NCBI GenBank assembly: GCA_947561395.2
Contig: OX387187.1
Span: 3,106,976-3,170,975 of the forward strand
Length of the DNA stretch: 64,000 nucleotides
Direction: 5' to 3'
Source: Buxus sempervirens
Taxonomy: Eukaryota; Streptophyta; Magnoliopsida; Buxales; Buxaceae
The notes below the pieces were generated by a model. That model was given only the letters and a program-made list of their open reading frames with translations, had not been told where the DNA came from and made no database searches. Positions 10,656-51,299 of this stretch are shown in pieces. Made by a program: the position numbers and the translations under genes. Each line of letters opens with the position of its first letter. Position 1 is the first letter of the stretch.

Positions 10656-10659
<4 letters not shown>

Positions 10660-10711: not shown

Positions 10712-10715
<4 letters not shown>

Positions 10716-10717
10716 CT

Positions 10718-19882: not shown

Positions 19883-20181
19883 TGCCCTAATTTCCCTTCA
19901 CTAAATAACAAGTACCATATTACTTTATGTGTCCACCTCTATAATTTAAATAACCTTTAAATTACCTTAATCGATCCCACCATTACCATTAACCACTTGA
20001 GTCTTCCACTACTATGATAATCCCATAACAAGACCTCGTCAATATTAGTACACACTAATGAACTGATTATGGAACAAGACTTTGGATTACCGATTGAACA
20101 TGAAAGACTTATGATTATAAACAATATTGGAATGTGAATGATTTGTACAATGACTTGGTGACCAGTTTTATTAATAAACTG

Positions 20182-24923: not shown

Positions 24924-24924
24924 A

Positions 24925-30039: not shown

Positions 30040-30145
30040 GCCCGTATTTCCTTCACGGGCCGGTCACGCCCGAGATCACTCTATGGTCAGGCGCGCCCGT
30101 AGTGAAAATACGGTCACCATTGGACCGTAATGCATTTACGGTCAC
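30040..30145. promoter_or_regulatory. Dyad cluster in Y 5' LTR U3
   Basis: GCCCGT-N9-ACGGGC (30040-30060) and TACGGTC-N7-GACCGTA (30109-30129) are clear, with half-sites between (GCGCCCGTA near 30093, TACGGTC near 30137). The arms of the second dyad show matching changes relative to TACGGGC/GCCCGTA. The cluster ends about 200 bases upstream of the TATA box. Confidence 0.6.
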
Positions 30146-30343
30146 TAAAGACTCGTGCGAGTTTTATCCTTCTCTCGATTTCCGAGCTTTATCTTTAGTC
30201 CAATATATCTCTAAATGAGCGAATTAAGTATTTTATTCGCTGAAGTCACCTTGGTTGGTTATGGATGGGCATTATCTTGTATTTAACTCAAACTGAAACT
30301 CTATCTTGCCAAACCCTGGACCAACCATGCCCCTGTGCTTGCC

Positions 30344-30453
30344 TATAAATAGAGGTGAGATTCTCAAGCTGAGGGCCACGAAAATTTGAAGACTCAAGAG
30401 CTCCAAGAGAAGAAAGGAATCCCTGTTGCTCTGCCTGCTCAATCCAGGTAAGT
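30344..30453 (+). promoter_or_regulatory. Y LTR TATA box and leader splice donor
   Basis: TATAAATA (30344-30351) and CAG|GTAAGT (30447/30448). A matching acceptor lies before gag (34527). No ATG lies between the probable start site and the donor, so this exon would be untranslated. Confidence 0.6.
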
Positions 30454-31752: not shown

Positions 31753-31770
31753 TGGCGACTCTGCTGGGGA
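31753..31770 (+). other. Primer binding site of Y (tRNA-Arg)
   Basis: TGGCGACTCTGCTGGGGA starts two bases after the LTR. It is complementary to the 3' end of plant tRNA-Arg(ACG) as I recall it, with one mismatch, and shares its first 9 bases with the Z PBS. Confidence 0.75.
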
Positions 31771-33240
31771 CTTGAGGATTTGAGCCTTTTTGGTGTTTTA
31801 GTTCATGTTTTTTGATTCTTTGGATTTACTTGCTATTTTGTGTTCTTAAGCATGTTGGGTATGTTTTAAATCTGAATTATTGCTTAAGAATTCACGGGGG
31901 TAGAAACATGCTTAATTTTGATTTATAGGATTGTTTCTACAAACATGCGTAGGGGAGGTTCGTTTTGCTGAACCATGTTTATTTCTTGCTATATTTTTAT
32001 AATAGCATGTTTTAATTTTCAGCATGATCTTCATGATGCGTTTTTGGGTGTATAACATGATCATATGTTTGCATGATTAGATGATTTTTTATGAGCATGT
32101 TTTAGGTGCTATAGGATTGCTTTTTCCTTGTTTATTTTAAATATGCTTTCCTATTATGCCTTGGTTTGTTTATGCATGGCTGCGAAAAGAGTGGCAAGGG
32201 TTTGGGACGTTGTGAATGCACCCAATTTTTACAATGCACTGTGCACATTTATTTTTTTCACAGCCTACCCTTAACCTATAGGAAGTTGAACCCGAATGTG
32301 TGTAGCTTGGCGCAACGAGGTCGATACTTCGGAAAGCGAAAGTGAAAACATTCACCTTAGAACTTTGAGCTAATGATGTGATGATAACGTGGATCTGGGA
32401 TTCTGGTCATCACTAGGCTTGAGTGCTAAGTTGTCATTAAGCCAAAACCCAAAACCCCTACGCTTGAAGGTGGAGTTACACGTTTTTGGCTAAAGTACAC
32501 AATTACGTGGGGATATGGGTTTGTATGATTGTGGAAAGGCCGTGTGCATGGCTTACAAACCAGGGCATAATGCGGATGCCATATTGAAGGTAAACAAGGT
32601 AACAAGGTAATCCTATTGTTTTGCATTATTATCATGTCATAGGGGTGTTATGGTGCCCATTGGTTCGGGATAAAATTGGTCCCAAAATATGCATGTTTTT
32701 AAAATTGGTGTAGCCCATAGGAATAGTCCCTAACTCTGTTTAGAATCAATCCTACCCAATGTTCATGCAAGAGTCAACAAAAGGGTACCAAATTCTTGAG
32801 TATGGTGTCAATTTGGAGGGTACATGTACCCTCCCAAGCATGTGTTTTTACAAATAGGCCAAGGTCCACTTTGGGACAGTTTAGAAACCCTGCACTGGGT
32901 GAAACGTACGTTTGGATAAGCAATAAAAGTGATCAAACCATGTAAAGACTGAGAAAACATAAAAGAGTTCCGTAGAACCGTATTTAATACACGGGCTGGG
33001 CTCGTCCGTATTCGTTATACGGGCGGAGCTCGCCCGTGAATGTCATACGGTCACGGCTCGCTCGTAATTTGAATACGGGCAGGGCTGGACTGTACTGTGT
33101 ATACGGTTTTCGCGGAAAATCCAATTTTAATCAGCTTTTTCCCACTAAATCTTATTCTTTTAACCTTTAAATAATGATAAAGGGAAATAGGTTTAAATAA
33201 AATGCTTCAAAAAAAATGAATAGTAAATAAAAAAAAGTGT
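31771..33240 (+). mobile_element. Leader of Y, first part
   Basis: Non-coding; about 1.5 kb homologous to Z 9149-10650. It contains the invariant 94-base block (32273-32366) and the leader dyad cluster (32984-33110). ORFs here have no supported product. Confidence 0.75.
32984..33110. promoter_or_regulatory. Dyad cluster in Y leader
   Basis: ACGGGCG-N5-CGCCCGT at 33019-33037 (equivalent to ACGGGC-N7-GCCCGT) is the cleanest. Flanking dyads are degenerate ('acgggctgggctcgtccgt', 'tacggtcacggctcgctcgta', 'tacgggcagggctggactgta'). Spacing between units is about 30 bases. It lies just before the hairpin minisatellite. Confidence 0.6.
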
Positions 33241-33249
33241 GAAGAGAAA

Positions 33250-34350
33250 ATCCTTTGGGCGTTTGAAAGCCTTTGAATTTCAGACTTTTTCTCAAAAAAC
33301 TCCTTGGGCGTCTGAAAGCCTTTGAATTTCAGACTTTTTCTCAAAAACTCCTTGGGCCTCTGAAAGCCTTTGAATTTCAGACTTTTTCTCAAAAAACTCC
33401 TTGGGCCTCTGAAAGCCTTTGAATTTCAAACTTTTTCTCAAAAACTCCTTGGGCCTCTGAAAGCCTTTGAATTTCAGACTTTTTCTCAAAAAACTCCTTG
33501 GGCCTCTGAAAGCCTTTGAATTTCAGACTTTTTCTCAAAAACTCCTTGGGCCTCTGAAAGCCTTTGAATTTCAGACTTTTTCTCAAAAAACCCCGGGCCT
33601 CTGAAAGCCTTTGAATTTCTGACCTTTTCTCAAAATGTCCTTGGGCCTCTGAAAGCCTTTGAATTTCAGATATTTTGGGCCTCTGAAAGCCTTTGAATTT
33701 CAGAACCTTTTCTTTTGGGCCTCTGAAAGCCTTTGAATTTCAGATATTTTGGGCCTCTGAAAGCCTTTGAATTTCAGACCTTTTTCTTTTGGGCCTCTGA
33801 AAGCCTTTGAATTTCAGATATTTTGGGCCTCTGAAAGCCTTTGAATTTCAGACCTTTTTCTTTTGGGCCTCTGAAAGCCTTTGAATTTCAGATCTTTTGG
33901 GCCTCTGAAAGCCTTTAATTTCAGGCCTTTTTCTTTTGGGCCTCTGAAAGCCTTTGAATTTCAGATCTTTTGGGCCTCTGAAAGCCTTTGAATTTCAGAT
34001 CTTTTGGGCCTCTGAAAGCCTTTGAATTTCAGACCTTTTTCTTTTGGGCCTCTAAAAGCCTTTGAATTTCAGATCTTTGGGCCTCTGAAAGCCTTTGAAT
34101 TTCAGATTCTTTTCTCAAAAACTCTTTGGGCCTCTGAAAGCCTTTGAATTTCAGACTTTTTCTCAAAATATCCCTGGGCCTCTGAAAGCCTTTGAATTTC
34201 AGACCTTTTCCAAAAAAATCCCTGGGCCTCTGAAAGCCTTTGAATTTCAGACCTTTTCTCAAAACCCCTCGGGCCTCTGAAAGCCTTTGAATTTCAGATC
34301 TATCTCTCTTTTTGTGGGACCTGTTGGAAGCCCTAGAATATTCCAACAAT
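33250..34350 (+). repeat. Hairpin minisatellite of Y leader (about 26 units)
   Basis: Units of 33-49 bases with GGGCC, TCTGAAA, loop GCCTTTGAA and TTTCAGA. The last unit (about 34313-34345) instead has GTTGGAA/TTCCAAC around an 11-base loop and the same GGG...GAAGCC...GAA frame. Sense and antisense ORFs exist through the array because of its base composition. It ends about 180 bases before the gag splice acceptor. Confidence 0.9.
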
Positions 34351-34504
34351 TCAATTCAAAAAAACAAAAAAAACCAAAAAACAAAAAAACCAAAAAACAA
34401 AAAAGGAAGCAAATAAAGAAAAAAATCCAAACTCGCGTTCACCCAACCTGCACATAGGCATTCCTAGGCATGTGAATGAGATTAATTGGGCACTGATATT
34501 TTTT

Positions 34505-34527
34505 TTTCTCTTTTATTTTGTGGCCAG
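34505..34527 (+). other. Probable splice acceptor before Y gag
   Basis: A T-rich tract ends in TGGCCAG at 34527, 53 bases before the gag ATG (34581), at the same place as the acceptor in Z (12416). With the LTR donor it would remove about 4.08 kb including the dyads and the minisatellite. Confidence 0.5.
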
Positions 34528-35795
34528 GTACTAATACACTTGCAATCATAGCTCCTGTAACCAGATCAAGAGCTCGCGCCATGAATCCCATTGAAGACGA
34601 AGCTGATGCTCCTCATCCAGATGTTGTCCTGCTCCAAGAACAAGTAGCAGGATTAGCCCGAATGTTAGAGAACATATTGTCCGTGCAAGCCCAACAAGTG
34701 CAGGCCCAACAAATGCAGGCCCAGAACCAAGCATCCACTTCCAACCCTGCACCTCCACCCCAAATCAATATTCCACCTCCAATGCAACCAACTCCTGAAC
34801 CCATCTATGAACCCACCCCTGAACCTATACTGACTAGGGATGAGACAGCTGAGTCAAACAAGGCTAAGGAAAAGGAAAGGATAAGGGAAGAGGTTGAAAG
34901 AAAGTTCTTGCATAAGCTAGAAATGATTCAAGATGAAATTAGAGAAGTAAAAGGGGTGAGCAACTTCGGGGGCACCAACTTTGAAGACTTATGCTTATAC
35001 CCTAATGTTAACTTGCCGGCTAAGTTTAAGTGCCCAGATCTAGACAAGTATGATGGCACAGGATGCCCCATGAGCCACCTGAAGTTATACTGTGGTGCCT
35101 TATGCCAGTTTGGGTGGGATGAAGGTGTTCTGATTCAGCTCTTCCAAAGGAGCCTGACTGGAACCGCATTAAGGTGGTTCGCTACTCTAGACCATGGGAA
35201 GATTAGAAGATGGAAGGACCTAGCAGATGCCTTCCTAGCTCAGTACCGGTTCAATTCAGAGATCGTGCTAGACAGGTACGACGTAATGAGAATGAGCAAA
35301 GGAAGGGATGAGACTGTAAGGCAGTACGCCAAGAGGTGGAGGGAAACAGCCTCTCAAGTCAGGCCACCTATGCTAGAGCAGGAAATGATTTCCACCTTCA
35401 TCAGCACATTGGGCCAACCCTTCTACAGCCATTTGGTGGGTCAGACTACCACTAATTTTGCTGCCTTGGTTCAAGTGGCTGACCGAATAGAAGAAGGGAT
35501 AAGATCAGGCAAGATAATTGATCACTCTGCCATGGTTAGTCAACAAGACCCCAATGTGAAGAAAGGAAGCGGGACGAAGAAGAATGGAAACAAGAAAGAA
35601 GGAGAGGTGAACATGGTACAGCCACCATCAGGCCCTAACAAACCCATAAAAATCAACATACCCGCTCATTTTCCTACTCCATCTCCATCTACCCAGGCCC
35701 CTATGAGGGTTAATGTTCCAGCAGCACCTTCAGACCAAAAAAAGGGTTTTTACCAAGGAGGAAAAGGATGCTTATTTTGCAGCAAGGAGAAATAG
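34518..35795 (+). CDS. gag: gag of Y
   Basis: Structural protein of the virus-like particle. The frame is open for 425 codons; the likely start is ATG 34581 (MNPIEDEADAPHPD), although IAPVTRSRARA upstream is conserved with Z. Glutamine- and proline-rich N-terminus, then a Retrotrans_gag domain (about residues 130-300): LYCGALCQFGWDEGVLIQLF, ALRWFATLDHGKIRRWKDL, AKRWRETASQ, LVGQTTTNFAALVQVADRI. The frame ends at 35793-35795 after an A7 run at about 35739-35745. The protein continues in the +1 frame, probably because of a one-base change. Confidence 0.9.
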   Translation: MWPGTNTLAIIAPVTRSRARAMNPIEDEADAPHPDVVLLQEQVAGLARMLENILSVQAQQVQAQQMQAQNQASTSNPAPPPQINIPPPMQPTPEPIYEPTPEPILTRDETAESNKAKEKERIREEVERKFLHKLEMIQDEIREVKGVSNFGGTNFEDLCLYPNVNLPAKFKCPDLDKYDGTGCPMSHLKLYCGALCQFGWDEGVLIQLFQRSLTGTALRWFATLDHGKIRRWKDLADAFLAQYRFNSEIVLDRYDVMRMSKGRDETVRQYAKRWRETASQVRPPMLEQEMISTFISTLGQPFYSHLVGQTTTNFAALVQVADRIEEGIRSGKIIDHSAMVSQQDPNVKKGSGTKKNGNKKEGEVNMVQPPSGPNKPIKINIPAHFPTPSPSTQAPMRVNVPAAPSDQKKGFYQGGKGCLFCSKEK

Positions 35796-38232
35796 GGTTT
35801 TCACCCCTATTCCAATGACTCCTTCTCAGTTGCTGCCCACCTTATTGCAAGCAGGGTATATCACCTTAAGAGAACCCAATCCAAATGCACCCAAGGGGAG
35901 AAATTTTGACCCCTCCACCACTTGTGATAACCACATGGGTGCACCTGGGCACCCTACTGACAAGTGCTGGCCTTTGAAACATGCCATTCAGGATTTACTG
36001 GACCAGAATACCCTATCCTTCAATACAGGGGCTCCCAATCCTCCTAGAACAGATATTGGATAGAACCCTCTGCCCCAGCATCATGGGGCAGGCCCATCTA
36101 ATGTTATAGGTGTCGTCTCTTCTGATAAAATAACCTTTGACCCATCCCAGTTAATTGCTCCAATAGGAACAACGGTCAAGGTTTATTTTAACAGAATAAA
36201 CAGGGAAAAAGAAATAAATGTAATTTCAAAGGGGAATGATAGTGCTGCAAAGAACATTAGCTCATCTCTGGACCGGGTCTCGTCCCTCATGGCCCAAATG
36301 AACATTGCAAAACCACCATTGATCATCAATTGCAGTCCATCCACCTTTACTTCACCCATTCAGTCAAAACCACCATTGGTCATAAATTGTGACCACTTTA
36401 ATGCATCAGTCACTTCTGTGACCCCTCAACCAAATCAACTCCCACCATTGGTTGTTGATATCCCTCTCACTCAAATTTCATCATCCAAGTCTAAACTTCC
36501 TCCCTTGGTGATAAATGTCCCCAAGCCTTCCTACTCTGAATCGGCCGTACCATGGAACTACAGTGAAGCTTTTACCACTATATGCCCTGCAGCTGAAAGC
36601 AAGGAAGAAGTGAACCTCATGATGAGGTCAGGAAAATGTGTAGAGGTGGAAGAAAAACAAAAGGAAACAGAGAAGGAGAAGGAAGAAGAAAAAAATAAAG
36701 GAAAGGCCAAGATAGGGGAAGATGCCCCTCAGGTAACTAATAGTAAGGCTGCTGACCTCATTAAAATAATGAAAAAGAGTGAGTTCAATGTTGTCGAACA
36801 GTTGAACAAAGTCCCTGCCCAGATCTCAATACTGGGCTTATTGTTAAATTCTGAAAAACATAGGGACTCCTTGTTAAGGATACTCCAGGGGGCCCATGTG
36901 CCTAAAAATATTGAACCAGACCAACTAGGCCGGATGGTTGGGCAAATATTATCCCATAATGTCATAACGTTTTCAGAGACCGAGATCAGCCCAGCAGGGT
37001 ACCATCATGTTGACCCATTGCACATAGCTGTACTCAGTAAGGGTTGCATGATAGCCCGGGTCTTGATTGATAATGGGTCGGCTCTGAATGTCTGCCCATT
37101 AATAACCTTTGTTAAGCTCGGTCTGGAGCAAAACAAAATCAAACAGAATGGAAGATTCATAAGAGCATTTGACAGCTCTAAAACACACTCCCTAGGGGAG
37201 GTTGAACTGCCGGTCACAATTGGACCGTATATTTTCAACATCACATTTGAAGTGATGGATATACCTGCAGCCTTCAACCTCCTCCTAGGAAGGCCGTGGA
37301 TTCATACGGCTAGGGCTATACCATCTACCCTCCACCAAAGAGTCAAATATATCAGAGGGCAAAAGGTGATTACTGTCCTAGCCGAAAATTTGGTTCCTCC
37401 CATGTGGTCCCCTGATGTACCCTGTATAAACATGGAAATGACTGCTGATAAGATGGCATTTCACTCTTTCCAATTTGAAACTGTTAATTTCATACCTGGG
37501 GGATATCAAGAAAAAGAAGGAAAATTGACCTGTGCTGAGAAAATGGTCAAGAATGTGCTGGAAAAATATAACTTTCACCCTGGAAAAGGTCTGGGGGTTA
37601 ACCTGCAAGGAAGAATAGAACCGATAAAGGTTAAGAAGATGGCCCATAGAGCAGGATTGGGGTCCAAGCCAAGGAAGTGGAGAAGTCAGAAGGAAATAGA
37701 AGACATGAAATTCCCGCACATCAGGGAAACTTTTCCTAAGCTTTCTCACATGATTCAGCTGTCTCCTCCTGAAGATCAGTCCAAACCCCCATACTATAAC
37801 ATCAATCCATTCCAAAAACCCAAATCCTCAACCGTGCAACCATATGTTCCACCTCCACCTCCACAAGCATTGGGTGGGCCTGGGCCACATACAGAACAGA
37901 AGCATGACTTTTCTGAGGACGTAGGAGCATTCTTTGCCATGACAGAAGGCAACCAAGAAAAAGTAGCAGAGGAGCTACCTTTTATCGATTGGGCTGCAGT
38001 AGAAGTTCCATCTGGAACTAGCCCTACGGAAGAAACAGGCGATGCAACTCACCCAGTATTGGTGATTTCAGATGCAGACCCTGAGCTTGAGGAGCAGGCT
38101 TGTATCCCTGCCCCAGATTCTTTTATTCTAAACAATTGGGAGGAAACTCCCCTTACTTTTGAAGCCGCGTTTGTTTGGCAAACAGACATGGCTTCCAAAA
38201 AAAACTCCATTAGTGGAATGCCCTTCCCCTGA
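35713..38232 (+). pseudogene. pro: gag C-terminus, aspartic protease and G-patch of Y (one stop)
   Basis: Frame +1 relative to gag. It begins with a CHHC zinc-knuckle-like motif (CDNHMGAPGHPTDKC, 35923-35967). A TAG at 36061-36063 interrupts it, and the frame then continues open through FDPSQLIAPIGTTV. The retropepsin-type site VLIDNGSALNV (Asp codon 37069) has DNG where DSG or DTG is usual; DNG is common in Tat elements. LLLGRPWIH (about 37290) is the flap-distal motif. A G-patch (HPGKGLGVNLQGR, about 37575-37615) follows, typical of Tat/Ogre. The frame ends at 38232, after an A8 run near 38199. Confidence 0.85.
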
Positions 38233-39838
38233 AGGTTTTAATGAGCCTTCGTCTTCAGGGAAAGATTTTATAGAAGGCTCTCAAAAAACACAAAAAGATT
38301 TTTCAATTTTTTCTAGAAAAGATAAAGTTTTCAAAAAGGTCCAAACCATTTATGAAACATATAAGCAAACGGAATTGGATCAGGATGAGTACGACTTCGA
38401 CCTTGAGCTCGACTTTGACCTAATGGGGGTTTAAGAAGAGACCGAGGATGAAAAAGACGATCCTCCAAAGGAAATCACATATCAATTAGAGCGTCATGAA
38501 AAGGGGGTCCAACCCAATATTGAAGAGACCATATCAGTAAACCTAGGGACCGAAGATGATCCAAAAATAGTAAAGATTGGGGTATGCCTATCTGAGGTAC
38601 AGCGAGATGAAATGATACGATTTTTGGCTGATTATGAAGATGTATTTGCATGGTCGTATCGGGATATGCTAGGTTTAGACACGGACATGGTTGTGCACAG
38701 GCTACCCATTCTACCAGATGCCAAGCCAGTTAAGCAGAAACTGAGAAGGTTAAAACCTGAATGGACATTGAAGGTTAAAGATGAAGTGGTTAAGCAATTT
38801 CAAGCTGGGTTCTTAGCGGTCTCCACTTACCCTGAATGGCTTGCAAATATAGTGCCAGTACCAAAGAAGGATGGAAAGGTCCGAATGTGTGTAGACTACA
38901 GAGACTTGAATAAGGCAAGCCCAAAGGATGATTTTCCACTTCCACACATAGACATATTGGTGGACAACACTGCTGTACATAGCCTGTTCTCATTCATGGA
39001 CGGGTTTTCTGGGTATAATCAAATTAAGATGGTTAAGGAGGATCAAGAAAAAACAGCCTTCATTACACCTTGGGGTACATTCCACTACACTGTCATGCCA
39101 TTTGGGCTTAAGAACGCTGGGGCAACCTACCAACGGGCCATGATAGCCTTATTCCATGATATGATCCATAAGGAGATGGAGGTCTATGTGGATGATATGA
39201 TAGCCAAATCATGTGAAGAAGAAGACCACTTGATCAATTTGAAGAAGGTGTTTGACCGGCTCAGGAAATATAGTCTAAGGCTTAACCCTGCGAAATGTGT
39301 CTTTGGGGCTACATCAGGAAAATTATTGGGCTTTATAGTAAGTAGAAGGGGAATTGAGATAGACCCAGCTAAAGCTAAAGCAATCATTGAAATGCCATCA
39401 CCTAGAACCAAGAGGGAAGTTCGGGGTTTTCTTGAAAGGATTCAGTACATAAGCCGGTTCATAGCACAACTCACCGCTATCTATGAACCAATTTTCAAGC
39501 TTCTAAGAAAGAATAACCCGACAGTCTGGAATGACGATTGCCAAGAAGCCTTTGACACAATAAAGGAATATTTGTTGAACCCACCTGTATTAGTACCACC
39601 AACTCCAGGAAGACCATTGATTTTATACTTGTCTGTTTTGGAGACATCAATGGGGTGTGTCTTGGGACAGCATGACGATACAGGCAGAAAGGAAAGGGCG
39701 ATTTACTACTTAAGCAAGAAATTTACAGAATATGAAGCAAAGTATTCTCCTTTAGAAAAGACTTGTTGTGCTTTAGTATGGGCAACTCAGAGGCTGAGGC
39801 ATTATTTCCTTAGTCATTCCACCTTATTGATATCCTGA
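38159..39838 (+). pseudogene. pol: Reverse transcriptase and RNase H of Y (stops)
   Basis: RNA-dependent DNA polymerase. A third frame opens at 38159, with a TAA at 38432-38434 and a TGA at 39836-39838. The RT (about 38720-39420) shows PVKQKLRRLKPEW, VPKKDGKVRMCVDYRDLNK, FSGYNQI, MPFGLKNAGATYQRAM, and the catalytic box YVDD (39185-39196), all intact. The native RNase H follows (about 39550-39830: DDTGRKERAIYYLSKKFTEYE, SPLEKTCCALVWATQRLRHY). Both stops fit C-to-T changes (CAA to TAA, CGA to TGA). Confidence 0.9.
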
Positions 39839-40640
39839 ATGGACCCTTTGAAGTATCTATTTGAAAAGCCAGCTTTAACTGGCAGAACAGCAAAGTGGCA
39901 GTTGTTACTCTCTGAATTTGACCTCACCTATATCACACAGAAAGCCATTAAGGGTCAAGCCATAGCTGATCACTTAGCTGCACACCCTTTACCGGAATAC
40001 CAACCCTTGAAGACCAACTTCCCTGATGAGGCAATCCTGTTTGCTGAAGAAGAAGAAGGTGAAAGCTCTTGGCAAATGTTTTTTGATGAGGCCGCCAACA
40101 TGAATGGAAATGGAATAGGGGCTGTTTTGATCAAGCCAGATGGGGCACACATCCCAATCGCAGTGAAGCTAAGGTTCCAATGCACAAATAATATAGCAGA
40201 GTATGAAGCATGCATAATTGGGTTGCAAGCTGCCATAGACCATGAAGTAGAGAAACTTGACGTATATGGGGATTCGAGTCTTATCATCTTCCAAACAACT
40301 GGTGAATGGAAAACCAAGGATCACAAATTGATCCCCTATCACCAGTATTTGGAAGAAATAAGCACCAAATTTACTCGGATTTCCTTCAATTATATGCCAA
40401 GGGCCAAAAATCAGTTTGCAGATGCTCTAGCAACATTGGCTTCAATGGTCAGTATGCCAGAAGGTGTTGATATTAGACCACTGGAAATTGAAGTCAGAGA
40501 TGAACCAGCTTATTGTCTTGTTCTAGAAGAAACCCCAGAAGAAGAACTACCATGGTTTCAAGATATTAAGAACTTCCTAAATGATCGGAGTTTGCCAGAA
40601 AATATCACTTCTACAGAGAAAAGAACAATACAGAGGTTGG
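39839..40640 (+). pseudogene. pol: Second, archaeal-type RNase H of Y
   Basis: In frame with RT across the TGA. MFFDEAANMNGNGIGAVL (about 40075), CTNNIAEYEACIIGLQAA, VYGDSSLII and FADALATLASM give the D-E-D-D set of an extra RNase H domain. A second RNase H after the native one is a known Tat-lineage trait. The usual DGA near the first aspartate reads DEA here (GGN to GAN), a change next to the active site. Confidence 0.8.
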
Positions 40641-41800
40641 CAGGACAGTTCTTACAAAGTGGTGGGCAGTTATACAAAAGATCACACAATGATATACTAC
40701 TTAGATGTGTCGCCAAGACCGAGTCAGAAAGGTTAGTTGAAACGGTACATGGGGGAGTGTGTGGACCCCATATGAACGGGCACATGCTTGCCAAGAAAAT
40801 TCTGCAATTGGGATATTACTGGTCGACTATGGAGCATGATTGCTATATACATGTCAAAAGGTGTCATTTATGCCAAGTGTATGCGGATAATAAAAATGCA
40901 CCCCCAAGTGAATTACACAACATGACATCTCCATGGCCCTTCTCCATGTGGGGTATAGACGTCATTGGAATGATCTCTCCAAAGGCATCAAATGGACACA
41001 GGTTTATACTTGTAGCAATTGATTACTTCACCAAGTGGGTAGAGGCAGCTTCGTATGCAAACATTACAAGTAGCCATGTTTTGAAATTCTTAAAGCACAA
41101 TATCATTTGTCGCTACGGTTTGCCAAGTGCCATAGTATCAAACAATGCTTCAAACCTTAAGAACAAGGATATGAGAAAGATGTGTGAATAGTTTCAGATT
41201 ACCCACCATAAGTCAGCTCCGTATAGACCAAAGATGAATGGGGCAGTGGAAGCAGCAAATAAGAATATAAAGAAGATCATTCAGAAGATGGTAGTGAGTT
41301 TTAAAGATTGGCATGAAATGCTGCCACTTGCTCTACATGCTTACAGAACCTCAATTAGAACTTCTATAGGGGCAACCCCGTACTCTTTAGTATATGGAAT
41401 GGAAGCAGTTTTACCAGTGGAAGTGGAAATACCTTCACTAAGAGTGCTAATGGAAGCTGAATTAGAAGAAGCTGAATGGATACAATCAAGACATGATCAA
41501 CTCAATCTAATAGAGGAAAAGCGATTAAAAGCGCTTTGTCATGGTCAATTGTATCAGAAGAGAATGGCCAGGGCTTACAATAAGAAAGTGAAGCCCAGAA
41601 CTTTCCAAGAAGGAAATTTAGTATTGAAGAAAATTTTACCCTTTTTGGAAGATCCTCGTGGAAAGTTCAAACCAAATTGGGAAGGACCTTATGTGGTCAA
41701 GAAGATCCTATCAGGGGGTGCTCTCATCTTAGCAGAAATGGATGGGAAGGATTTTCCTGAGCCAATTAACTCTGATGCAGTAAAGAGATATTTTCCTTGA
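40641..41800 (+). pseudogene. pol: Integrase of Y (stop and mutated catalytic Asp)
   Basis: Inserts the cDNA into the genome. HHCC zinc-binding region at about 40750-40875 (HVKRCHLCQVY), then the core: D at 40958 (MWGIDVIGM), N at 41141 where the second catalytic D is expected (IVSNNASNL), E at 41249 (NGAVEAANK), 35 residues between the last two. A TAG at 41189-41191 also interrupts it. The C-terminal part (41234-41800) has the GPY-type motif WEGPYVVKKIL and no chromodomain. The Asp-to-Asn change and the stop fit G-to-A and C-to-T transitions. Confidence 0.9.
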
Positions 41801-42691
41801 ATGAATATTACTAGGAAATGATCCGAGGCCATTTTTCTATACCTCTCAAAAATTCAATCCCTAGTCAAGCCAATTTGAGCCTGTTCGTCTTCTTTGTTAA
41901 ACCTAAATTGGACTTACAGTCTTATACTGGGGCAAAGCCAATAGGGGCAGAAAGGAAAAGAGAAAAAATAGGGGCAAATGAAAGCCACATACAAAAGAAG
42001 GGGAATGGGATTGAATTCATCATGAATGTAAGTCCGGTTGACCCATTTTCACACTTAGAAAATTTTGAGCCTTTAATACCTTTTCTTTCATAAACCAAGC
42101 TTAGCCTTTGTTTCGTCCTATTATTAAGCCCTCGGTTATTTTAGTATATTCATTCAATTTTCAGAGTAAGATTGGTGATGACGGAATGCAGAAGCCGACC
42201 CTAGTGAAAACCGTAATTGGCACTAGGGGCAATAAGGGCAAAAAGAAAAAATAGAAAAAAAAAAGAAAAAAAAAATCAAAGGTTGAGTTGATCATGTGGT
42301 CCAAATGTAATCAGTATAAGCACTGGAAACTGAGTAGATTAGCGGGGTCAATCATGAAGGTAAAGCCATTAGGGGATGATTCTAAAGGCCACGGGGTAGA
42401 CAGATTTGGTCTCTCCCTATTGCTTGGACTACCCTTTTCATTATTCACCTGATTTTAATTCCTTTAATTATATGTGATTAAGTGTTTTGGATCAGCTTTC
42501 AAAAAAAAAAAAACTATACTTTGGCCAGTGATGAGAAATCAAATACTTTTTCATAAAACTTCTGTTTTTACAAGCATCTGAGAATTCTGAGGCCAATAAT
42601 AGAAAAACTATTTTTGAATTAAATCTATTATCTTTCCACTAATAGAGTTTGCTTTTGTATAAAAGTATGAAGAAAACAAAGATAAAAGAAT
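41801..42691 (+). mobile_element. Non-coding spacer after pol of Y
   Basis: No supported gene. It includes a purine-rich tract (about 42233-42284) that has a counterpart in Z (about 16787-16850), and sequence shared with Z at 42430-42620. On the minus strand it is the 3' side of antisense gene 1. The 91-codon ORF at 41818 has no recognisable domain. Confidence 0.6.
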
Positions 42692-44426
42692 CTAATCCCT
42701 ACTCCCTAACTGCTCCTCAAGTTCCCTAATCCTAGCTGCCTGAGTTGCAATGATTCCAGAAGCTCCCCCTGCATCAGGATCACTCAAAAAGGAGATGACC
42801 TCATCTGAAAAAGAATGCTTGATCTTCAATGCCCTAAGGTCGGCCAAGGAATCCTGATATTTCTTCCGCATCACTCGGACTTCAAAGCGATGAGCCTGCC
42901 TTTGTTCTTCAAGTTTCTTCTCCATGGCAAGGCGGCCAGACTTCTGCTCTTCAAGCTTTCTCTCCAAAACAAGGACTTTTATCCTAAGTTCTTGAGCCTC
43001 CCGTATCCATATTTGTTGAAGCCGCTTATGGGTTGCCCTTTCTGACTCCAGAATATCCTCATAGGTAGGAGGAAGAACTGCAGGAGGGTCTTCTGGTACT
43101 GGGGCATGACTCTGCACCTGCTCTTTGATCCAAAAGTGATAGTCCTTCACATGGGACTCAGAAAAGACAGGACCCCGTAGAAAGCGAACATAGGACCACT
43201 CATTCATTAATTGAGCATTTAGCCCCATGGTGGCTGATGTAAGTGGTCCTACAAGGCTCTCATAGCCAGTTGGGATCATAATTCCTTGGGTCGCTCCAAA
43301 CTGCCGAAGAACCCTCAAAGGAAGATAGAGAACAGCAGATTTCAAGCCTACTAGGACCAAAAAGTGCCTATCTTTGAAGCTGATCACTGTCTCTGGATTG
43401 GGTTGATAAGTGCCAGGCCATCTCACTTGATCATCCTGGAGAGTACCCAAGAAAGTGAACCATCCCTGCTTGCCGCCTTGGATATTAGGACAACCCCTGT
43501 GGCTCATCAGAACAGGAACTTTCAACCTTGGAAAGAAGTGGCGAGTTATCTCTTCAACTTGGCTTAGGTGGTCAAGCAACCAAAGTTGCAGAAAAGGGGA
43601 GTATTTCAATTTATTTCCAAAAAGAAAAAAAAGAAAAAGAAAAAAAAAAGAAGAAAAAAAAAGAAAAAAAAAGAGAAGAGAAAAAAAAAAAAAAAAAGAA
43701 GGAAAAAATATTTATTTATTTTCTTACCTGTAGGATAGGGGCGCAGGCAAGGAAGCGTTTCTTCTTTCTGAAATAACAGTCAGTAAGGGCATGGTATATC
43801 TCTGCTAAGATCATAGGGGCCAACCTCTCACGTTCCCTAACCTGGCAGATAACTGAGATGAGAGCCAAGTCAACCTGGTCATCACCCCGTGGAAAAAGCA
43901 ACTGATTGACCACTATCAGAGTCAATGCATTAAACCTGGCATCCTTGTCCCCACTCCTTAGAAGTTTTTCAGTCAAAAAGGTCTTGGACAAGGTCAATAG
44001 GGTATCAGAATTCCCTAAGTCTTTCTTCCCTATACCCAAGAATGTAGAGGCCTCCTTTTTGTAACTAGGCTTTAGGGGTGGGTTCACAACTTTTTCAGAA
44101 AATCTTAGGCCAAGGATGGTTTCAATTTCTTCTATAGTAGGAGTCATCTCTTTATCATCAAAACGGAAGAGATTCAGTTCGGGAACCCAGTGCCCTATCA
44201 AAGCTTCAATGATTTCCCACTTGAAAGGAATTTTAGGGAGGTGTAGGATATGCCCTAAGTGGATGGAATCCCAACGAATCTCCTCGTCAAGGGTCATGGA
44301 GTTAACCCATCTGTCGTATAAGGAGTCCACAATGTTGTACCTGGTAAGATTAGGAGGTTTTGATCTAACAGGGTGTCTTGCAGGAGAAGATTCAACGGCA
44401 GGAGAAAGCGGCGTAGGGGAAGCCAT
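42692..44426 (-). CDS. Antisense gene 1 of Y: PMD-like protein with coiled coil
   Basis: Exon 1 is 44426-43728 (233 codons from ATG, CAG|GTAAGA donor). Exon 2 runs to the stop at 42692 and is open from about 43630. The intron (about 100 bases) is nearly pure pyrimidine and lacks an in-phase AG acceptor, so the acceptor seems lost. The N-terminus has a core similar to plant mobile domains and to plant retrotransposon domains of unknown function (I think of DUF7745): LIGHWVPELNLFRFDDKEM then ILGLRF. Exon 2 begins KYSPFLQLWLLDHL and ends with about 100 residues of heptad-rich coiled coil (LERKLEEQ, MEKKLEEQ). A TATA box (44518-44525, minus) lies 92 bases upstream of the ATG and a dyad cluster just beyond. 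The function is unknown; nuclear regulation or anti-silencing is a guess. Confidence 0.75.
43625..43727 (-). other. Pyrimidine-tract intron of antisense gene 1, acceptor not visible
   Basis: On the minus strand GTAAGAAAATAA is followed by about 85 bases of T with few C. The expected phase-0 junction lies before codons for NKLKYSPF, but no AG is found before 'cctaag' near 43568, which is out of phase. Slippage in the T run may have removed the acceptor. Confidence 0.55.
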
Positions 44427-44517
44427 GGAAGCGCCAAAGAAGCCAAGGAAAGCGAGAAAATACGTGCTCAGGAAGTTTCCAAACTATTAAAAGTGTCACA
44501 ATGACGCTCCCCATGAG

Positions 44518-44525
44518 TTTATATA
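44518..44525 (-). promoter_or_regulatory. TATA box of antisense gene 1
   Basis: TATATAAA on the minus strand, 92 bases before the ATG at 44426 and directly downstream (in transcription direction) of the dyad cluster 44546-44685. Confidence 0.6.
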
Positions 44526-44545
44526 GAAGAAATCGTTAAGGCAGT

Positions 44546-44685
44546 AAAATCCGTAAATAGAATACGGGCATATCGCGCCCGTATAAAAAATACGGACAGA
44601 TGTGACCGTGAAAACTTTACGGGCACAGTGCGCCCGTGTTCGTATTACGGGCACAGCTTGCTCGTAGTCTAAGTACGGTTACCTC
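44546..44685. promoter_or_regulatory. Dyad cluster upstream of antisense gene 1
   Basis: ATACGGGC-N7-GCCCGTAT (44562-44584) is a perfect 8-bp dyad. TACGGAC-N6-GACCGTG, TACGGGC-N7-GCCCGTG (about 44618) and TACGGGC-N7-GCTCGTA (about 44645) follow at about 28-32 base intervals. It is the same motif as in the LTR U3 of this element, placed 20-160 bases upstream of the antisense TATA box. Confidence 0.75.
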
Positions 44686-44896
44686 CGAAAAATGCAAAAA
44701 ATTGGGCAGTTTCAATTTCCTTGTTTCCCTAAGCTTCACCTGTCCCTGTTTTAACATTCATCATGTAATAAAAACTGAAAAGAAAGAAGGAAAGAACACA
44801 AATGAATGAAAATTAAACTCCTTTTATATATATGAGAATGTTTACATCACTTTTGTCAAAAAATACAAATGTATATGAAAAATCCTAATCTACTGT

Positions 44897-47765
44897 CTAT
44901 GCAGGTCCGCCCCTACGGCCACGGCCTCGTCCTCTACCCCGACCACGGCCTGAAGATCGCCTGTGCTCAAAGACATGCCGCACAATATTGCGGGCAGTGC
45001 TACGAGTCATCCTGCTCAAAACAGACTGAATATCATACCACATATATAAAGGCACAAGGCCAACAGTGGGATGATCAGGAGGGACGTACCCTGAAGTATC
45101 TACATATCCCGTAGACTCGGGATCAGAATCAGTACGGGAAGAATCCGCAGAAGGATCAGCAGCAGCAGGCATCTCCTCTACAGCCTCCATAGCAGGACCA
45201 GCAGGAGCAGATGTCCCAGGAACATCAGCATCAGGACCAGGCACTACAGCATCAGCTGTAGCCTCCCCCATCACCACGGCCTCCACAGCAGGCTCTACCA
45301 CAGCGGCGTCCATAGCCGAATCCATATCTACATCAACAGATGCATTAGGAGCAGTCTCAGCGACTGGGGCAGACTCTGGCACATCCTCAGCAGCAGGTGC
45401 AATATCAGCCTCGATCTCAGGCTCTGCTGCAGGTGCCTCTACCGGACTGGGAGAAGTCACGAACTCCACCCGTGCCACAGAAAATACCTCATCCCGAAGA
45501 TGCATGGGCATAGGTGAAGCCGGTGAAGAAGGGCCAGCTGTGTCCTCCTGAAACTAAGAGAAGAAATTTCAGTCAGAACCAGATAAACAATTATAATAGC
45601 AGGAATGGAAATAAAGGAAGAAAATAACCTGAGTGTAAGATGGACCCGCCTGGTCCTGTGCATCAGATGGACCCTCCTGGCCCTGTGCTTTGGCTAGCTG
45701 CCCCCGGAGGTCTGAAATGGTAATATAGAGGGCATCCCGCTCGGCGATCGCAGCATCTCGCTGGCGCTCTATATCAGCATATCGAGACCGGATCTCTGCC
45801 AACTGAGCCTCCTGAAATAGAAAAGAAAGGGTCAGAAAATGTCAAGAACAAATGAAAATAGAAAGGTGAAAAGGAAGAAGGCATACCGTAGTGTCATAAG
45901 CCCTAATCACTACCCCTCCAATCTCAGTGACTCCGCCACGGACAGGCATAGGTGGCATGAGACACCCAACTGAAGCTCGCCTGAACCAGGCATCATAGTC
46001 ACCCTCCTCCAATAATGTCTCTGCCTCAGTCCAATCCAGGAACTGGGCAGGATCAATAGGCATAGGAGGATAGGAAGGAGTAGTATCTGGCGGGATGACA
46101 GGAATCCGCGGCTCTTCTACATGCTGAAAGAAGAAGCACTCGCCGCAGTACCAGATGCTGCCCATCTGACCAATAAAGAACTGGTATCTCTGTCGTCTCT
46201 GGTCAGGGACAAATGCATCATCTCTGGCTGCATGCAGGGCCAGCACCTCATGAATGTCCTCCATCCTGGGGACAAATAGCTGAAAAACAAAGTGGGATAT
46301 TAGATATATGATTCAGAAAGAAAAGAAAAGAAGAAAGAAGAGGAATTAAAGTAGATTACCTCAGACCGATACAGCCTGGCCAAGTGGGCCCAGGCGGACC
46401 TAGGACGACTCTTTTCAGAGTCGTGCTCTACATGACACCATCTACGTGCCATGGGATACGTCTCCTCAGACACCGTAGGGGTAGGGCGGAAATAGGGTAT
46501 ATAAACCCTAGCAAAAAACTGCAGAAAGAAGAAAGAAAGTTAGAAGAATAAAAAAAAAAAAAGAGAGAGAAAGAAAGAGAAGAAAAAGAAAATGGTTCAC
46601 CTGCAGGAAGGGCCAGAAGAATCTGCACCCAACTCCAGCTCCTCTAGAAGTAGAGAGACCGCTCACCGATTGGCGCAGACCAGCCAAAATAGTACCAAAA
46701 ATGAGCGGGCCCCAGGCGTACCTCCTCGCTCGATGCAGATCTCCCAATAAGCTCAGAAAATAAGGACTAACCGAAGTCGTGTCCTCTGGGAAGAAGCAAG
46801 ATCCTATCATGTACAGAAAAAGGAATCGAAAGGCAAATGGGAAAACATGATCACCGGAGGCAAGCTGGCCAAACTGCCTCACCCTGAAGGTCTCTCTCAA
46901 CCATGTCAGAGACAATCTCGCCCTCCCTCTATCCCATGCCTCAGGAGGTAGCACGATGTATCCAAGATAAGCAGCGACCTCATCAGTCTCCGGCATCACC
47001 ATTTCAAGAATAATGTCACCGGTCATCCTAATCCTGGTGATAAGGGTGAAGTCAGAAGGCCGGATCCCGATCTCAATATCTGGGAAATGGAAGCTCAATG
47101 TCTCAGGGAAAAACCTCTCCAGCAGTGCAGCAATGAGGGCCCGATCCATGCGCACGTCCGGAATGGTAATAAACCTGCCAAATCCATATAAGCCTAACTC
47201 CCGACGGTAGGCCGAACTGCAGGCTCCCAAGAATCTAATAAAACTGGCCCAGCTCCCTTTATAGTGGGACATAGGATACTCCAAAGGGATGTCCGCCCTA
47301 ATACACACTGAGGGATGAGTCCTCAAGCCATGCAAAAGATCGGTATCCCTAATCTGGGCAGCCACCTCCTCAGGAATCTCAACCCTGGTCCTGGCCTCAT
47401 CTCTGCCACGGCCCCCTCTGCGGCCTCCTCTACGGCCCTCATCATGGCCTCCATCTCTGCCTCCAGCTCGACGCCTACTACAGCTCCTATCTCTGCCCGA
47501 AGCCTCAACAACCGGCTAAGGAAACAAATTGAAAGAAGGAAAGAATCAGGAGGATGTATTTTGGGAAAGGATATGAAATTTCATAAAGGTTAGAGTATAC
47601 CTCTGGGGTCGCCTCACGCGAATCCCCAGAAGGGAGATCAGGGACATCAGAATCCGAATCCCTCTCGGCCCTCGAAGATGAGGCCACATCAGCAGGATCT
47701 CGCCTAACCCTCGAGGAGGAAGGCTCATCTGCAGGATCCCTGGAAGCTGATCGAAGACGGGCCAT
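44897..47765 (-). CDS. Antisense gene 2 of Y: six-exon plant-mobile-domain-like protein
   Basis: Exons (minus): 47765-47601, 47515-46601, 46518-46360, 46279-45887, 45811-45629, 45553-44897. Every intron is GT...AG with a T-rich acceptor, every coding exon is a multiple of three, and the join is one open frame of 823 codons. The acceptor of the last exon could instead be at 45547. Domains: Arg/Ser-rich N-terminus; RG-rich box (exon 2 start, about residues 68-95); PMD-like core (about 100-330) with ALLERFFPETLSFHFPD and FGTILAGLRQS; coiled coil (exon 5); Glu/Ala/Pro-rich acidic tail; C-terminal RG repeats (GRGRGRGRGRGRRGG). Plant PMD proteins such as MAIL1/MAIN act in silencing and genome stability; a role for this protein is inferred. 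It is better preserved than the sense gag-pol. Confidence 0.85.
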
Positions 47766-48727
47766 CTACGGAAAAAGGAAAAAATGGAGAATGGAAGAAA
47801 ATGCTTCAGAAACTCCCAATCAAATCAGAAGTCAACTAAAAGAGTTTAAAAAAAAAATTTCGGAGAAATTTTATTGTGATACTTACTTGTCTCAACCAAG
47901 AAAATATATGAACATTATATATAGGAAGCTTAGGCTTCTTGTATATACATGAATATGTTAAGAATTGATTCTAATTTTCTCTTTTGCATTTTTGTCTCAG
48001 GACGGAAATTCAAGCCTATTTGTGTAGTGGTTGTGGTAACAGAAGTACTCATCAAGTTTAGGCTTATTGGAAGGAAGATCGGTTTAATTGGGAGTGAAAA
48101 TCATTAGCCTAACAGCCCCTACAGTGTAAATCCAAGCAAGTCAAAATCAACTTTTTAAGTTGCATAGATAGACAATCACCTAGCATCCCATGATCAAAGC
48201 AAAGTTTCAAGAAGACCTAAAGCAACAGTCCGGAAGCAGGAAGTGAACATACAAAAGTCTGCTATGAAAATATGCATTGGCAGTAAATCAGGATCATGAA
48301 AGTATCAAAACATGCCGAGCATGATTACTCTAGATCAGCAAGGCAGCACAGCAGTTCAATAACTGAGAAAATTGAGCATGGGTCAAACATGAATCCAGAA
48401 GCATTACATTCTCAAAGGTGTCATTGGCAAGGAAAATTGGCAGCCTATAATCATGAACAAGCCAACATTTGAGGGATTTTTAACCATTCAAGTACTAACA
48501 ATCTAGTGAATTCATTCAGAAAATTGCAATCACATTCAGACAGGAATTGACAGCACAAGAGATTGGTTCATGAGGCACAAATCATCCAATTTCAGATTTT
48601 TGGATAAGATGTTAATGGGGGAACTCTGTAAACCGAGCAAAACAATCAAAATCATATAGTTGCATTCGTTCAATCATGGATTTGGGACATGGTTAATATG
48701 AAAACTGAAAACAAAGGGCGAGCATAC
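47766..48727 (-). other. 5' leader intron of antisense gene 2
   Basis: Donor CAG|GTATGC at 48728/48727 and acceptor TTTTCCGTAG at 47766, which touches the ATG (47765). It would be 962 bases. The upstream exon (from about 49030 to 48728, minus) is untranslated and rich in CT on the coding strand. ORFs on the plus strand at 48753-49072 lie in this leader and look spurious. The gag gene has a similar leader-intron layout. Confidence 0.55.
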
Positions 48728-49037
48728 CTGTTTCAGTCGAAGGAGGAAAAGCTTGCAAAAGAAATCAGAAGTTGGACTTACAAAGAACAAAGAAGATTCT
48801 CAATCGCAACAGGAAACAGGTCTTCGCCAGAAAACAGAAGACGCCGGAGAAAATGAAGGTCACCGGAATGAACAGTGGTCGTCGGAAGGAGAGAGTCGCC
48901 GGAGAGCAACAGGAGTCGTCGGAGATTGGAAGAAGAAGAAGAAGACCGCAGAGAAGACTACGGTCGCATGAAGTTAGGGCTTGAATGCGAGCAGAAGAGA
49001 AAAGGTCGCGGTCACGGTCTTAAGAAGGAGAGTAAAA

Positions 49038-49135
49038 TCCGTAAAATCAGTACGGGCATCAGACGCCCGTAAAATCCATACGGTCCCGTTCGCCCGTGAA
49101 CTATCTACGGGTAGCATCTGTCCGTAAGGCAAATA
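49038..49135. promoter_or_regulatory. Dyad cluster upstream of antisense gene 2
   Basis: TACGGGC-N7-GCCCGTA (49051-49071) is perfect; TACGGTC-N6-GCCCGTG (about 49080) and TACGGGT-N7-GTCCGTA (about 49107) follow. They lie upstream of the untranslated leader exon of antisense gene 2. I found no clear TATA box downstream on the minus strand. Confidence 0.65.
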
Positions 49136-49473
49136 CAGGCGAAGCCAAAAATTGCATATTTATTATTTTCTCCACTTTTTTAGGAGATTAATGTCCATAC
49201 CAAGTGTAAGTTTTAAGGATTGCCACCATACTCACTTTTGTTTAAAAATTTTGTCTCAAATCTCATTTCATAGCCACGAGAGCTCAGTGAGAGGAGAGAG
49301 GAGGATTTGGCCCTTAAGCTGAGGGGCTTCTTAACAAATCTTCCACAATCAATTCTTTTTCCAAAAATCATCCATTTAATCCTTGCAAAGTGCAATTGAT
49401 TAGACAAAAATCTTAGAAAGTGCAATTGGTGGATCTTTTTGCTCTCTGCTTGTAATTGGTTCCAATTACCAAC

Positions 49474-49487
49474 AAATAGGGGGCAGC
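49474..49487 (+). other. Polypurine tract of Y
   Basis: 'aaatagggggcagc' directly precedes TGTAGACACC of the 3' LTR. It has the same position and core as in Z (18764-18779). Confidence 0.75.
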
Positions 49488-51299
49488 TGTAGACACCCCA
49501 AATTGCATTACAGAATGAGAAAGTAATAAAAACATGTAATTAGAGCTTAAAACAGGTCAAAAATGCATAAAAATTGAATAAGCAGACTTTGCTCGTATTT
49601 CCTTCACGGGCCGGTCACGCCAGAGATCACTCTATGGTCAAGCACGCCCGTAGTGAAAATACGGTCACCATTGGACCGTAATGCATTTACGGTCACTAAA
49701 GACTCGTGCGAGTTTTATCCTTCTCTCGATTTCCGAGCTTTATCTTTAGTCCAATATATCTCTAAATGAGCGAATTAAGTATTTTATTCGCTGAAGTCAC
49801 CTTGGTTGGTTATGGATGGGCATTATCTTGTATTTAACTCAAACTGAAACTCTATCTTGCCAAACCCTGGACCAACCATGCCCCTGTGCTTGCCTATAAA
49901 TAGAGGTGAGATTCTCAAGCTGAGGGCCACGAAAATTTGAAGACTCAAGAGCTCCAAGAGAAGAAAGGAATCCCTGTTGCTCTGCCTGCTCAATCCAGGT
50001 AAGTCCCTTTTCCCTTTTATTTTCTGTCTTCAATTCTAGATGTAATAGGATCATCTCTATTGTTGTAGAATAAGGCCATATTTTGTATCTAGTATTCCTA
50101 AACTTGTCTCCAAGTACCTCAAGAGTCTCTCTAGCCGTAAAACGTGAAGAGAGAGCTAGGGGAAAAGAGAATAGGTGGATCCCTAGAATAGAACCCCATA
50201 TCTGTTTTTCTCCTTTTTTCTAGAATAAAGCCTGTGATTGTGTTTGTGTAACCAAACCTATCTCCAAGTACCTCAAGAATCATCTCTAGCCGTAAAACGT
50301 GAAGAGAGAGCTAGGGGAAAAGAGAACAGGTGGATCCGTAGGGTAGACCCCCATGTGCTCTAATCTGTGAGATGTGGCTGCTTTAAATATCTTGATCATG
50401 TTTTAATGCTTTTTATGATATATCTGAATGAATAACATGAATCCATGATGTTTATAGCGTGAGATCCCCACTTTTTTATAAAATTTGGATTTTTGCCACT
50501 TTTGCACCTACAGCACTGTTTTCGTGATTTTTGTGATTTTAGGCTAAGATCTTGGATTTATCATGATCAATATGGTAGATCTGAATCCAGAAGCCTGAAA
50601 GTAAATTCTAGGGTTTCATGATGTGGTTTTTGAGTCGTTTTTCATTATTGAGAGAAGACCCTACGGTCTAAATCCTCCCCTTTTGATGTTCTTCATCAAC
50701 GTGGGTATTTTTGGTTTTGATTTTCAGATTTAATGTGAAATATGGGCTATATCTATGTCCTGGACTATTCAAGTTCAATTTTGAAATATTTTATAAAAAT
50801 CATATTTTTCTAGATTTCTAGAATTTGACTTGAAGCCAGATTTTTGGATTTTTCACTTTAAATTGATTTTACTTGATTTTATCTCAATTTTATTTTTGAT
50901 CATGAAACCCTAGGAATGGTATGATCATATTTGAAAGTTCTGGATCAATCAGACTATTTATATGAAAAAACCATACAATTTTGTCTTTTTTGTGATTTTT
51001 CTTGATTTTTATAGCAAGCTTTTTCCTTTAATTTAACATGAACAATGCCTGGGAACCACCTTGTGTGGATGAATAGGGGTGCCTAACACCTTCCCCTATT
51101 CATAACCTAATCCCCTTACCCATCTCTGGTTGTTTTTTTAGGAGGGTTATTTTTACCCTAAAATTGCCTTTTGCGCTTATTTAATATTTTGGTGTCCATT
51201 CACACTTAATTGAATGGTGGCGACTCTTTGTTTTATTTAATCCCGTGTGATGATTGAGAGGAAGTCAATTGAAAAATTGATTTTTTACCATGTCTCACA
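49488..51299 (+). repeat. 3' LTR of Y
   Basis: 1812 bp, almost identical to 29936-31750. Most differences are C/T or G/A transitions. It has the dyad cluster (49591-49697), TATA box (49895-49902) and splice donor (about 50000) of the 5' copy. Confidence 0.95.
49591..49697. promoter_or_regulatory. Dyad cluster in Y 3' LTR U3
   Basis: Copy of the 5' LTR cluster. TACGGTC-N7-GACCGTA is kept (about 49661-49681), while other half-sites have changed (GCCCGT to GCTCGT, GCGCCCGT to ACGCCCGT). Confidence 0.6.

Follow-up and report, generated by a model that had tools for sequence, protein, structure and literature searches.

Results

Two spliced genes opposite gag-pol in an Ogre-like element

The stretch of DNA analysed here, called the window below, comprises 64,000 nucleotides from Buxus sempervirens (GenBank assembly GCA_947561395.2, contig OX387187.1, positions 3,106,976 to 3,170,975 of the forward strand), and all positions are given in window coordinates. 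Its plus strand holds a long terminal repeat (LTR) retrotransposon of the Tat clade, Ogre-like, at 29936..51299, defined by its LTRs, its domains and a target duplication. On the opposite strand of this element we find two genes with introns that encode proteins of the plant mobile domain (PMD) superfamily. Gene 1 (44897..47765, minus strand) has six coding exons for a PMD protein of 823 amino acids, a model that rests on exon joining, a profile match and the comparison of genome copies. Gene 2 (42692..44426, minus strand), a DUF7745/PMD gene recognised by profiles and copies, lies directly downstream of gene 1.

Read along the minus strand, gene 1 begins with exon 1 (47601..47765, 165 bp), followed by exon 2 (46601..47515, 915 bp) with the first RG box and most of the PMD, exon 3 (46360..46518, 159 bp) with the remainder of the PMD match, exon 4 (45887..46279, 393 bp), exon 5 (45629..45811, 183 bp), in which the coiled coil proposed earlier is weak, and exon 6 (44897..45553, 657 bp) with an acidic tail and the second RG box. 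All introns are in phase 0 and the exons join into 823 codons and a stop. The introns are short (75-85 bp) and T-rich, with a GC content of 0.28-0.33 compared to 0.53-0.59 in the exons. An earlier note on this DNA had claimed exactly such a gene, and its six exons, GT/AG borders, exon lengths, five phase-0 introns and 823 codons proved correct to the base. Gene 2 as a gene with an intron, the shared intron position and the palindrome arrays described below go beyond that note.

The spliced protein matches the PMD profile PF10536 with an E-value of 7.2e-20 over residues 166-408 (profile positions 1-233 of 347), and its score of 71.9 bits is above the Pfam gathering cut-off of 34.9. The PMD-like core that had been claimed is thus present. 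The profile check proposed in the earlier note had also named DUF7745 (PF24924), and this half came out negative, the gene 1 protein giving no match to it in the profile search. As for the other protein parts, the acidic tail is evident (33 D+E against 5 K+R in residues 620-790) and RG boxes, some of them shortened, are found at both ends in the 22 intact proteins among the copies described below, whereas the coiled coil of exon 5 is not outstanding by a crude heptad score. A protein search for relatives beyond the Buxus genome gave no match in the database searched (8,000 candidates scored).

Borders, frame and selection in copies of gene 1

Copies of gene 1 were sought with exon 2 in the 676.5 Mb genome of which the window is a part. 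The search gave 3,523 first-look candidates, and the best 129 of these, 91-100% identical to the window, were scored; by a hand count of these best-scoring places, exon 2 is free of stops in 114 of the 129. Going down the list of the 128 non-window places in order of exon 2 similarity, we chose forty copies manually, and together with the window these form an alignment of 41 rows. The intactness of exon 2 is biased upward in this set, because 39 of the 40 fetched copies are stop-free there; exons 1 and 3-6 played no part in the selection.

It is clear from the alignment that the gene structure is shared. All 40 fetched copies align with gene 1 and have the same borders, and the ATG is kept in 41/41 rows. 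The donor GT of introns 1 to 5 is kept in 41, 40, 41, 39 and 38 of the 41 rows, and the acceptor AG in 40, 41, 40, 40 and 31. Intron 5 has an alternative acceptor 6 bp downstream, with which exon 6 would start 6 bp later and which is kept in 39/41 rows; when either acceptor is counted, all five introns have their GT and AG borders in 34 of the 41 rows. Where rows differ in exon length, the difference is divisible by three in 43 of 48 cases, compared to 24 of 138 for introns; badly truncated rows were dropped from the exon 6 count so that 39 of 41 remained. There is no clean intron loss among the 205 cases in the 41 rows, and one intron is shortened to less than 60 bp. Splice dinucleotides, exon lengths and frame are thus mostly retained while the introns drift, and the conservation of exon borders in related copies, named beforehand as one half of the test on which the model could fail, was borne out. 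The frame is wholly open in 22 of the 41 rows. When exon 4 was searched for alone, it was found open in 125 of the best 150 places among 2,662 candidates (hand count).

Selection was quantified as the ratio of nonsynonymous to synonymous divergence (dN/dS) by the Nei-Gojobori method, using for exons 1-4 the 30 of the 41 rows with open, full-length sequence in these exons. The comparison across related copies that the earlier note had proposed gave a ratio of 0.094, which indicates purifying selection; the use of open rows only lowers the ratio somewhat, and exons 1, 3 and 4 had not been used for finding the copies. The PMD part of exon 2 gave 0.059, and exons 1 to 4 taken singly gave 0.116, 0.076, 0.169 and 0.124. 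In the 22 intact rows the values were 0.091 for exon 5, 0.387 for exon 6 and 0.147 for the whole coding sequence. Read in the five other frames, the same sequences gave 0.244 in the antisense frame whose third positions are the same, and 1.14, 1.22, 2.32 and 3.51 in the remaining four; at the three codon positions of the gene 1 copies there are 133, 97 and 299 variable sites. As judged from these alignments, gene 1 is a selected gene with introns, and its predicted tail, encoded by exon 6, is both acidic and faster-evolving.

Three explanations were considered and rejected. A chance joining of open reading frames (ORFs) is ruled out by the conserved borders, the frame and the dN/dS with its frame controls, a recent capture of a host gene by the many diverged copies among the first-look candidates, and an effect of base composition on dN/dS by the other frames, which do not have low values. 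Separately, exons 3 and 4 have a synonymous divergence of 0.17-0.18 and exon 2 (46601-47515), in the same rows, one of 0.34, roughly double, which suggests old exon 2 alleles or recombination.

A probable, variable leader intron before gene 1

Upstream of the ATG, gene 1 has a probable leader intron of about 1 kb (47766..48781, minus strand), which is highly variable among copies and has only its 3' border fixed. It ends at 47766 directly before the ATG, and TAG immediately followed by ATG is found in 41/41 rows. From about 48860 to 47771 the window has no alignable counterpart in most copies, whereas both flanks are about 84-97% identical, and the variation stops abruptly at the splice site in front of the ATG (copies L009-L048). 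Among the 8 row pairs with a gene identity of at least 0.97 some leaders are nearly identical, but copies L037 and L044, with genes 98.5% identical, have leaders that align over only 35% of their length at 73% identity, and in the 39 row pairs at gene identity 0.95-0.97 the median aligned leader part is 0.10. The genome has at least 44 matches to the window leader (40 scored of 589 candidates); several cover only a part of it and have similar break points (1-383, 367-971). It looks as if copies have exchanged the putative leader intron as a unit, perhaps through template switching.

Gene 2

Gene 2 consists of two exons (44426-43728 and 43585-42692) and was seen as the ORFs 44426-43716 and 43609-42692. 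Exon 1 matches DUF7745 (3.8e-22, 79.2 bits against a cut-off of 26) as well as the PMD profile (1e-12, 48.3 bits against 34.9), and exon 2 alone continues both matches below the cut-offs, with 20.1 bits for PMD and 23.0 bits for DUF7745. A TATA box at 44525 lies upstream of the gene in a conserved stretch with a mean pairwise identity of 0.94.

The gene 2 region was fetched for 20 of the 40 copies, and since L058 and L066 had no usable match, 18 copies and the window were compared. The donor is kept in 19/19 rows and the acceptor in 18/19, the window being the exception, and its gene 2 is therefore probably damaged; intact copies exist elsewhere. The intron varies from 127 to 268 bp among the copies. 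The dN/dS is 0.132 for exon 1 (19 rows) and 0.165 for exon 2 (17 rows), and both exons are open in 8 of the 19 rows. Exon 1 is open in 146 of the best 150 places among 6,034 candidates (hand count). The open frame is longer than 570 amino acids at some places, which suggests that the T-rich intron can be read through there, and an annotation based on ORFs could therefore miss the intron.

Taken together, these comparisons leave us nearly certain that the predicted antisense genes are real and possess the introns described, irrespective of any mechanism discussed below.

An intron position shared with a canonical-type PMD locus

Intron 2 of gene 1 (46519..46600, minus strand) occupies a position common to gene 2 and to the PMD locus L069, a locus of canonical type which is the top-scoring PF10536 place of the genome (2.3e-51). 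In all three the intron is in phase 0, and it follows ...PFLQ in gene 1 (between FLQ and FF), ...PILQ in gene 2 (between ILQ and LW) and ...TLLQ in L069 (between LLQ and CW). MAFFT placed the gene 1 junction three columns off, next to a gap, and when this gap is ignored all three junctions coincide. From the shared codon position and phase the intron is probably ancestral, that is, older than the split of gene 1, gene 2 and the canonical PMD locus.

Among the 117 places scored with PF10536, 24 end at profile positions 177-191 near the shared intron and 93 reach at least position 289 (hand count); in the control genomes no PF10536 match was obtained (0/14). Many similar PMD ORFs of about 575-590 amino acids are unbroken at the position of the shared intron (for instance C3:45640023 and C3:45643445), and several of them are paired about 3.4 kb apart on the same strand. 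Such pairs perhaps represent another mobile family with two PMD genes.

How a retroelement keeps introns had been raised in the earlier note. The absence of clean losses reported above is consistent with antisense introns surviving retrotransposition, and they would persist because the genomic RNA, being of the opposite strand, offers them no splice sites. The 41 rows suggest that introns of a retroelement can pass through reverse transcription if their gene lies on the opposite strand, and the antisense placement would, if this is true, have let the element keep an intron inherited from an ancestral PMD gene.

Palindrome arrays in LTRs, leader and antisense promoters

The element contains a repeated motif, a TACGGGC-N6/7-GCCCGTA palindrome with some decay, which recurs every 27-28 bp in the first part of each LTR, in the leader that precedes gag, and ahead of the two antisense genes. 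The array upstream of gene 1 (48959..49122) has 7 half-sites, as has the one upstream of gene 2 (44551..44674), which also lies upstream of the TATA box mentioned above. Five half-sites are found in the 5' LTR (30042..30137, with a TATA-like box at 30344), four in the 3' LTR (49648..49688) and seven in the 5' leader before gag (32970..33102).

Counted as TACGG/CCGTA, half-sites form seven clusters of at least four in the window, compared to a mean of 0.007 and no more than 1 in 300 first-order Markov resamplings; because the motif was found by inspection, this figure is descriptive, and a better test is given by the copies and by the count over the genome. Altogether 71 of the 84 half-sites in the window fall within two related elements, the one described here and a second one at 7342-19884, and the leader array is seen only in these two. 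The gene 1 promoter array has 3-7 half-sites in 39/39 rows (the 38 copies with that part and the window), most commonly spaced by 28 and 27 bp. Its density is 27.2 half-sites per kb; none lie on its LTR side, and the leader and the gene body have 1.3 and 1.88 per kb. The gene 2 promoter array has 5-8 half-sites in 19/19 rows, and the 3' LTR array 4-6 in all 36 copies that have 400 bp of LTR. In the whole genome the exact N7 form has 7,417 matches, which were not assigned singly to elements, and the reversed control has none.

The promoters of both antisense genes and the LTR thus have one palindrome in common, as if the element were controlling itself.

The host element and its surroundings

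The LTRs of the element (29936-31750 and 49488-51299) are 98.9% identical, and the element is flanked by a 5-bp target duplication, AGGTT. A primer-binding-site candidate at 31753 resembles that of Ogre elements and may be of their tRNA-Arg type, and the label "Ogre-like" follows this likeness. Matches to gag, reverse transcriptase (RT) and integrase and to two RNase H domains all lie on the plus strand, confirming the claim of a Ty3/gypsy host with gene 1 on the strand opposite gag-pol. The second RNase H is seen as an RVT_3/RNase_H match separate from RT_RNaseH/RT_RNaseH_2, and we assign the element to the Tat clade because such an additional domain (aRH) in the polyprotein is reported as the mark of that clade (PMC6317226).

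The pol frame extends upstream past the gag-pro stop, and no clear intron between gag-pro and RT, an Ogre trait, was identified in the window element. In-frame stops break up the sense polyprotein, one at 38432 and others at the ORF ends 39838 and 41191, so the window copy is probably not autonomous. A G-patch domain (4.7e-7) lies in frame between gag and RT at 36289-38232.

The second related element carries the same palindrome motif at 7459-7503, 10316-10500 and 18897-18981; a tblastn comparison of gene 1 exon 2 and gene 2 exon 1 with this element gave no relative. Both elements contain long tandem arrays with units of 34-48 bp around TTGGGCCTCTGAAAGCCTTTGAATTTCAGA, at 33247-34298, directly after the leader palindrome array of the PMD element, and at 10717-12165. 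On either side of the PMD element there are direct repeats (22265-24924 and 52825-56112) that are about 91-94% identical and are possibly the LTRs of an outer element in which the PMD element is nested.

Discussion

A possible self-targeting regulator and its alternatives

The observations suggest a mechanism in which a Tat-clade, Ogre-like element carries two accessory genes opposite gag-pol, both of which possess introns and an upstream region of their own. RNAs initiated at the two antisense promoters would be spliced and translated, while the genomic RNA, lacking these splice sites, would take the introns through reverse transcription intact. With less certainty, one or both proteins may act in trans, as a dimer or in a complex, on the arrays of their own promoters as well as on those of the LTR and leader, and such a regulator would keep the element transcribed against host silencing and set the level of its own protein. 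An element-encoded, self-targeting regulator resembling VANC, acting on the arrays and favouring transcription, is the explanation to which we incline, with a confidence that falls a little short of even. That both spliced antisense proteins bind the arrays and lift host silencing from all array-bearing copies is a more far-reaching version which we consider rather doubtful. The host proteins MAIN and MAIL1 are reported to act in silencing of transposable elements (TEs), and PMDs borne by TEs have been proposed as counter-silencing factors (PMC8616336).

Several points weigh against a self-targeting activator. What ties the predicted PMD proteins to the palindrome is solely that both occur in the same element. 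MAIN and MAIL1 are silencers, so an element-borne PMD could equally repress. Gene 1 is not wholly open in 19 of the 41 rows, and 11 of the 19 rows lack a gene 2 with both exons open, which fits old copies but also a gene that individual copies can dispense with. Finally, the next intron of L069 lies at another position than intron 3 of gene 1.

If the antisense proteins were instead self-limiting repressors that bind the arrays, lower LTR transcription and hold the copy number at a tolerable level, as in retroelement copy-number control, arrays in the LTR and in both antisense promoters would fit negative autoregulation just as well, and the silencing of TEs by the related MAIN and MAIL1 (PMC5418596) would fit too. 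Selection among thousands of competing copies would, however, favour amplification over restraint more readily, and we regard such a repressor as improbable. The arrays might also be ordinary promoter elements for a host transcription factor, the PMD proteins serving some other role such as binding of the genomic RNA through the RG boxes, import of the pre-integration complex or steering of integration. The position of arrays upstream of the TATA-like boxes at 44525 and 30344 and the conservation of the gene 1 RG boxes at both ends agree with this, but 7,417 exact matches would tie up a host factor on a large scale and repeated non-coding arrays resemble self-targeting systems (PMC5735166); neither argument is decisive, and we think of the host factor as possible though rather unlikely.

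The two remaining explanations deny the proteins a role. For antisense aORFs (additional ORFs) in general it has been proposed that antisense transcription matters as RNA (PMC7264820), by double-stranded RNA or interference with the sense strand, so that the protein would be incidental. Here the dN/dS of exons 1-4 with its frame controls and the triplet length differences in exons (43 of 48 cases) show selection on the protein, which strongly disfavours the RNA explanation and makes it very improbable. For chance open frames or a recent, functionless capture of a host gene we found no support; the same borders in 40/40 copies, the number of first-look candidates and the purifying selection refute this explanation, and its likelihood is practically nil.

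Were the self-targeting activator to hold true, it would amount to a sequence-specific anti-silencing circuit in a retrotransposon, with the PMD silencing factors of the host as its counterpart. The biochemical function of plant mobile domain proteins is stated to be unknown (PMC8616336), and the palindrome offers a candidate target sequence with exact coordinates for them. The reason why Tat elements keep antisense genes would thereby become directly testable.

Comparison with known systems

That Tat elements contain PMDs, and that they contain antisense ORFs, is already in print. PMD is reported in 57% of Ogre elements (PMC6317226), and two PMD clades are described as exclusively Gypsy-borne (PMC5418596), so the domain and the element class are those found here, and this part of the novelty claimed in the earlier note is reduced. 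The Ogre/Tat reports, in the parts consulted, speak of ORFs and domains, whereas we describe a multi-exon antisense model with kept borders, a shared intron and palindrome arrays. The newness claimed for a spliced multi-exon antisense model agrees with the literature searched, in which neither a spliced antisense PMD gene nor the shared intron nor the arrays were found described, although a description in a 2011 survey cannot be excluded.

The aORFs of Retand-type elements (Grande gene23, RIRE2, TRP28/PF04195) are likewise antisense and placed between pol and the 3' LTR, and for gene23 a promoter of its own is reported (PMC7264820, PMC11963269). They differ from genes 1 and 2 by their domain, PF04195, for which neither gene 1 nor either exon of gene 2 gave a match at E-values up to 1. 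The aORF survey used ORF Finder ORFs of at least 600 bp and, in the parts consulted, modelled no introns (PMC11963269). MAIN and MAIL1 (PMD-C) have the same Pfam domain as the antisense proteins but are host genes acting in TE silencing (PMC5418596, PMC7156037), not element-borne; L069, a locus of canonical type that need not be MAIN or MAIL, has one intron position in common with both antisense genes. HBZ of HTLV-1 is a reported case of an antisense regulatory gene in a retroelement (PMC11963269). It differs in belonging to an animal virus, and a similarity to PMD is not expected. The HBZ transcript is spliced.

VANDAL elements are DNA transposons. VANC, encoded by VANDAL21 of Arabidopsis, is like the proteins described here an element-encoded protein with conserved and variable parts. 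It is the closest functional parallel, being reported to bind short motifs in tandem repeats in non-coding parts of its own VANDAL element and to cause loss of methylation (PMC5735166, PMC10398659). Tandem short motifs in non-coding parts of the element are present here too, the motif in our case being a palindrome.

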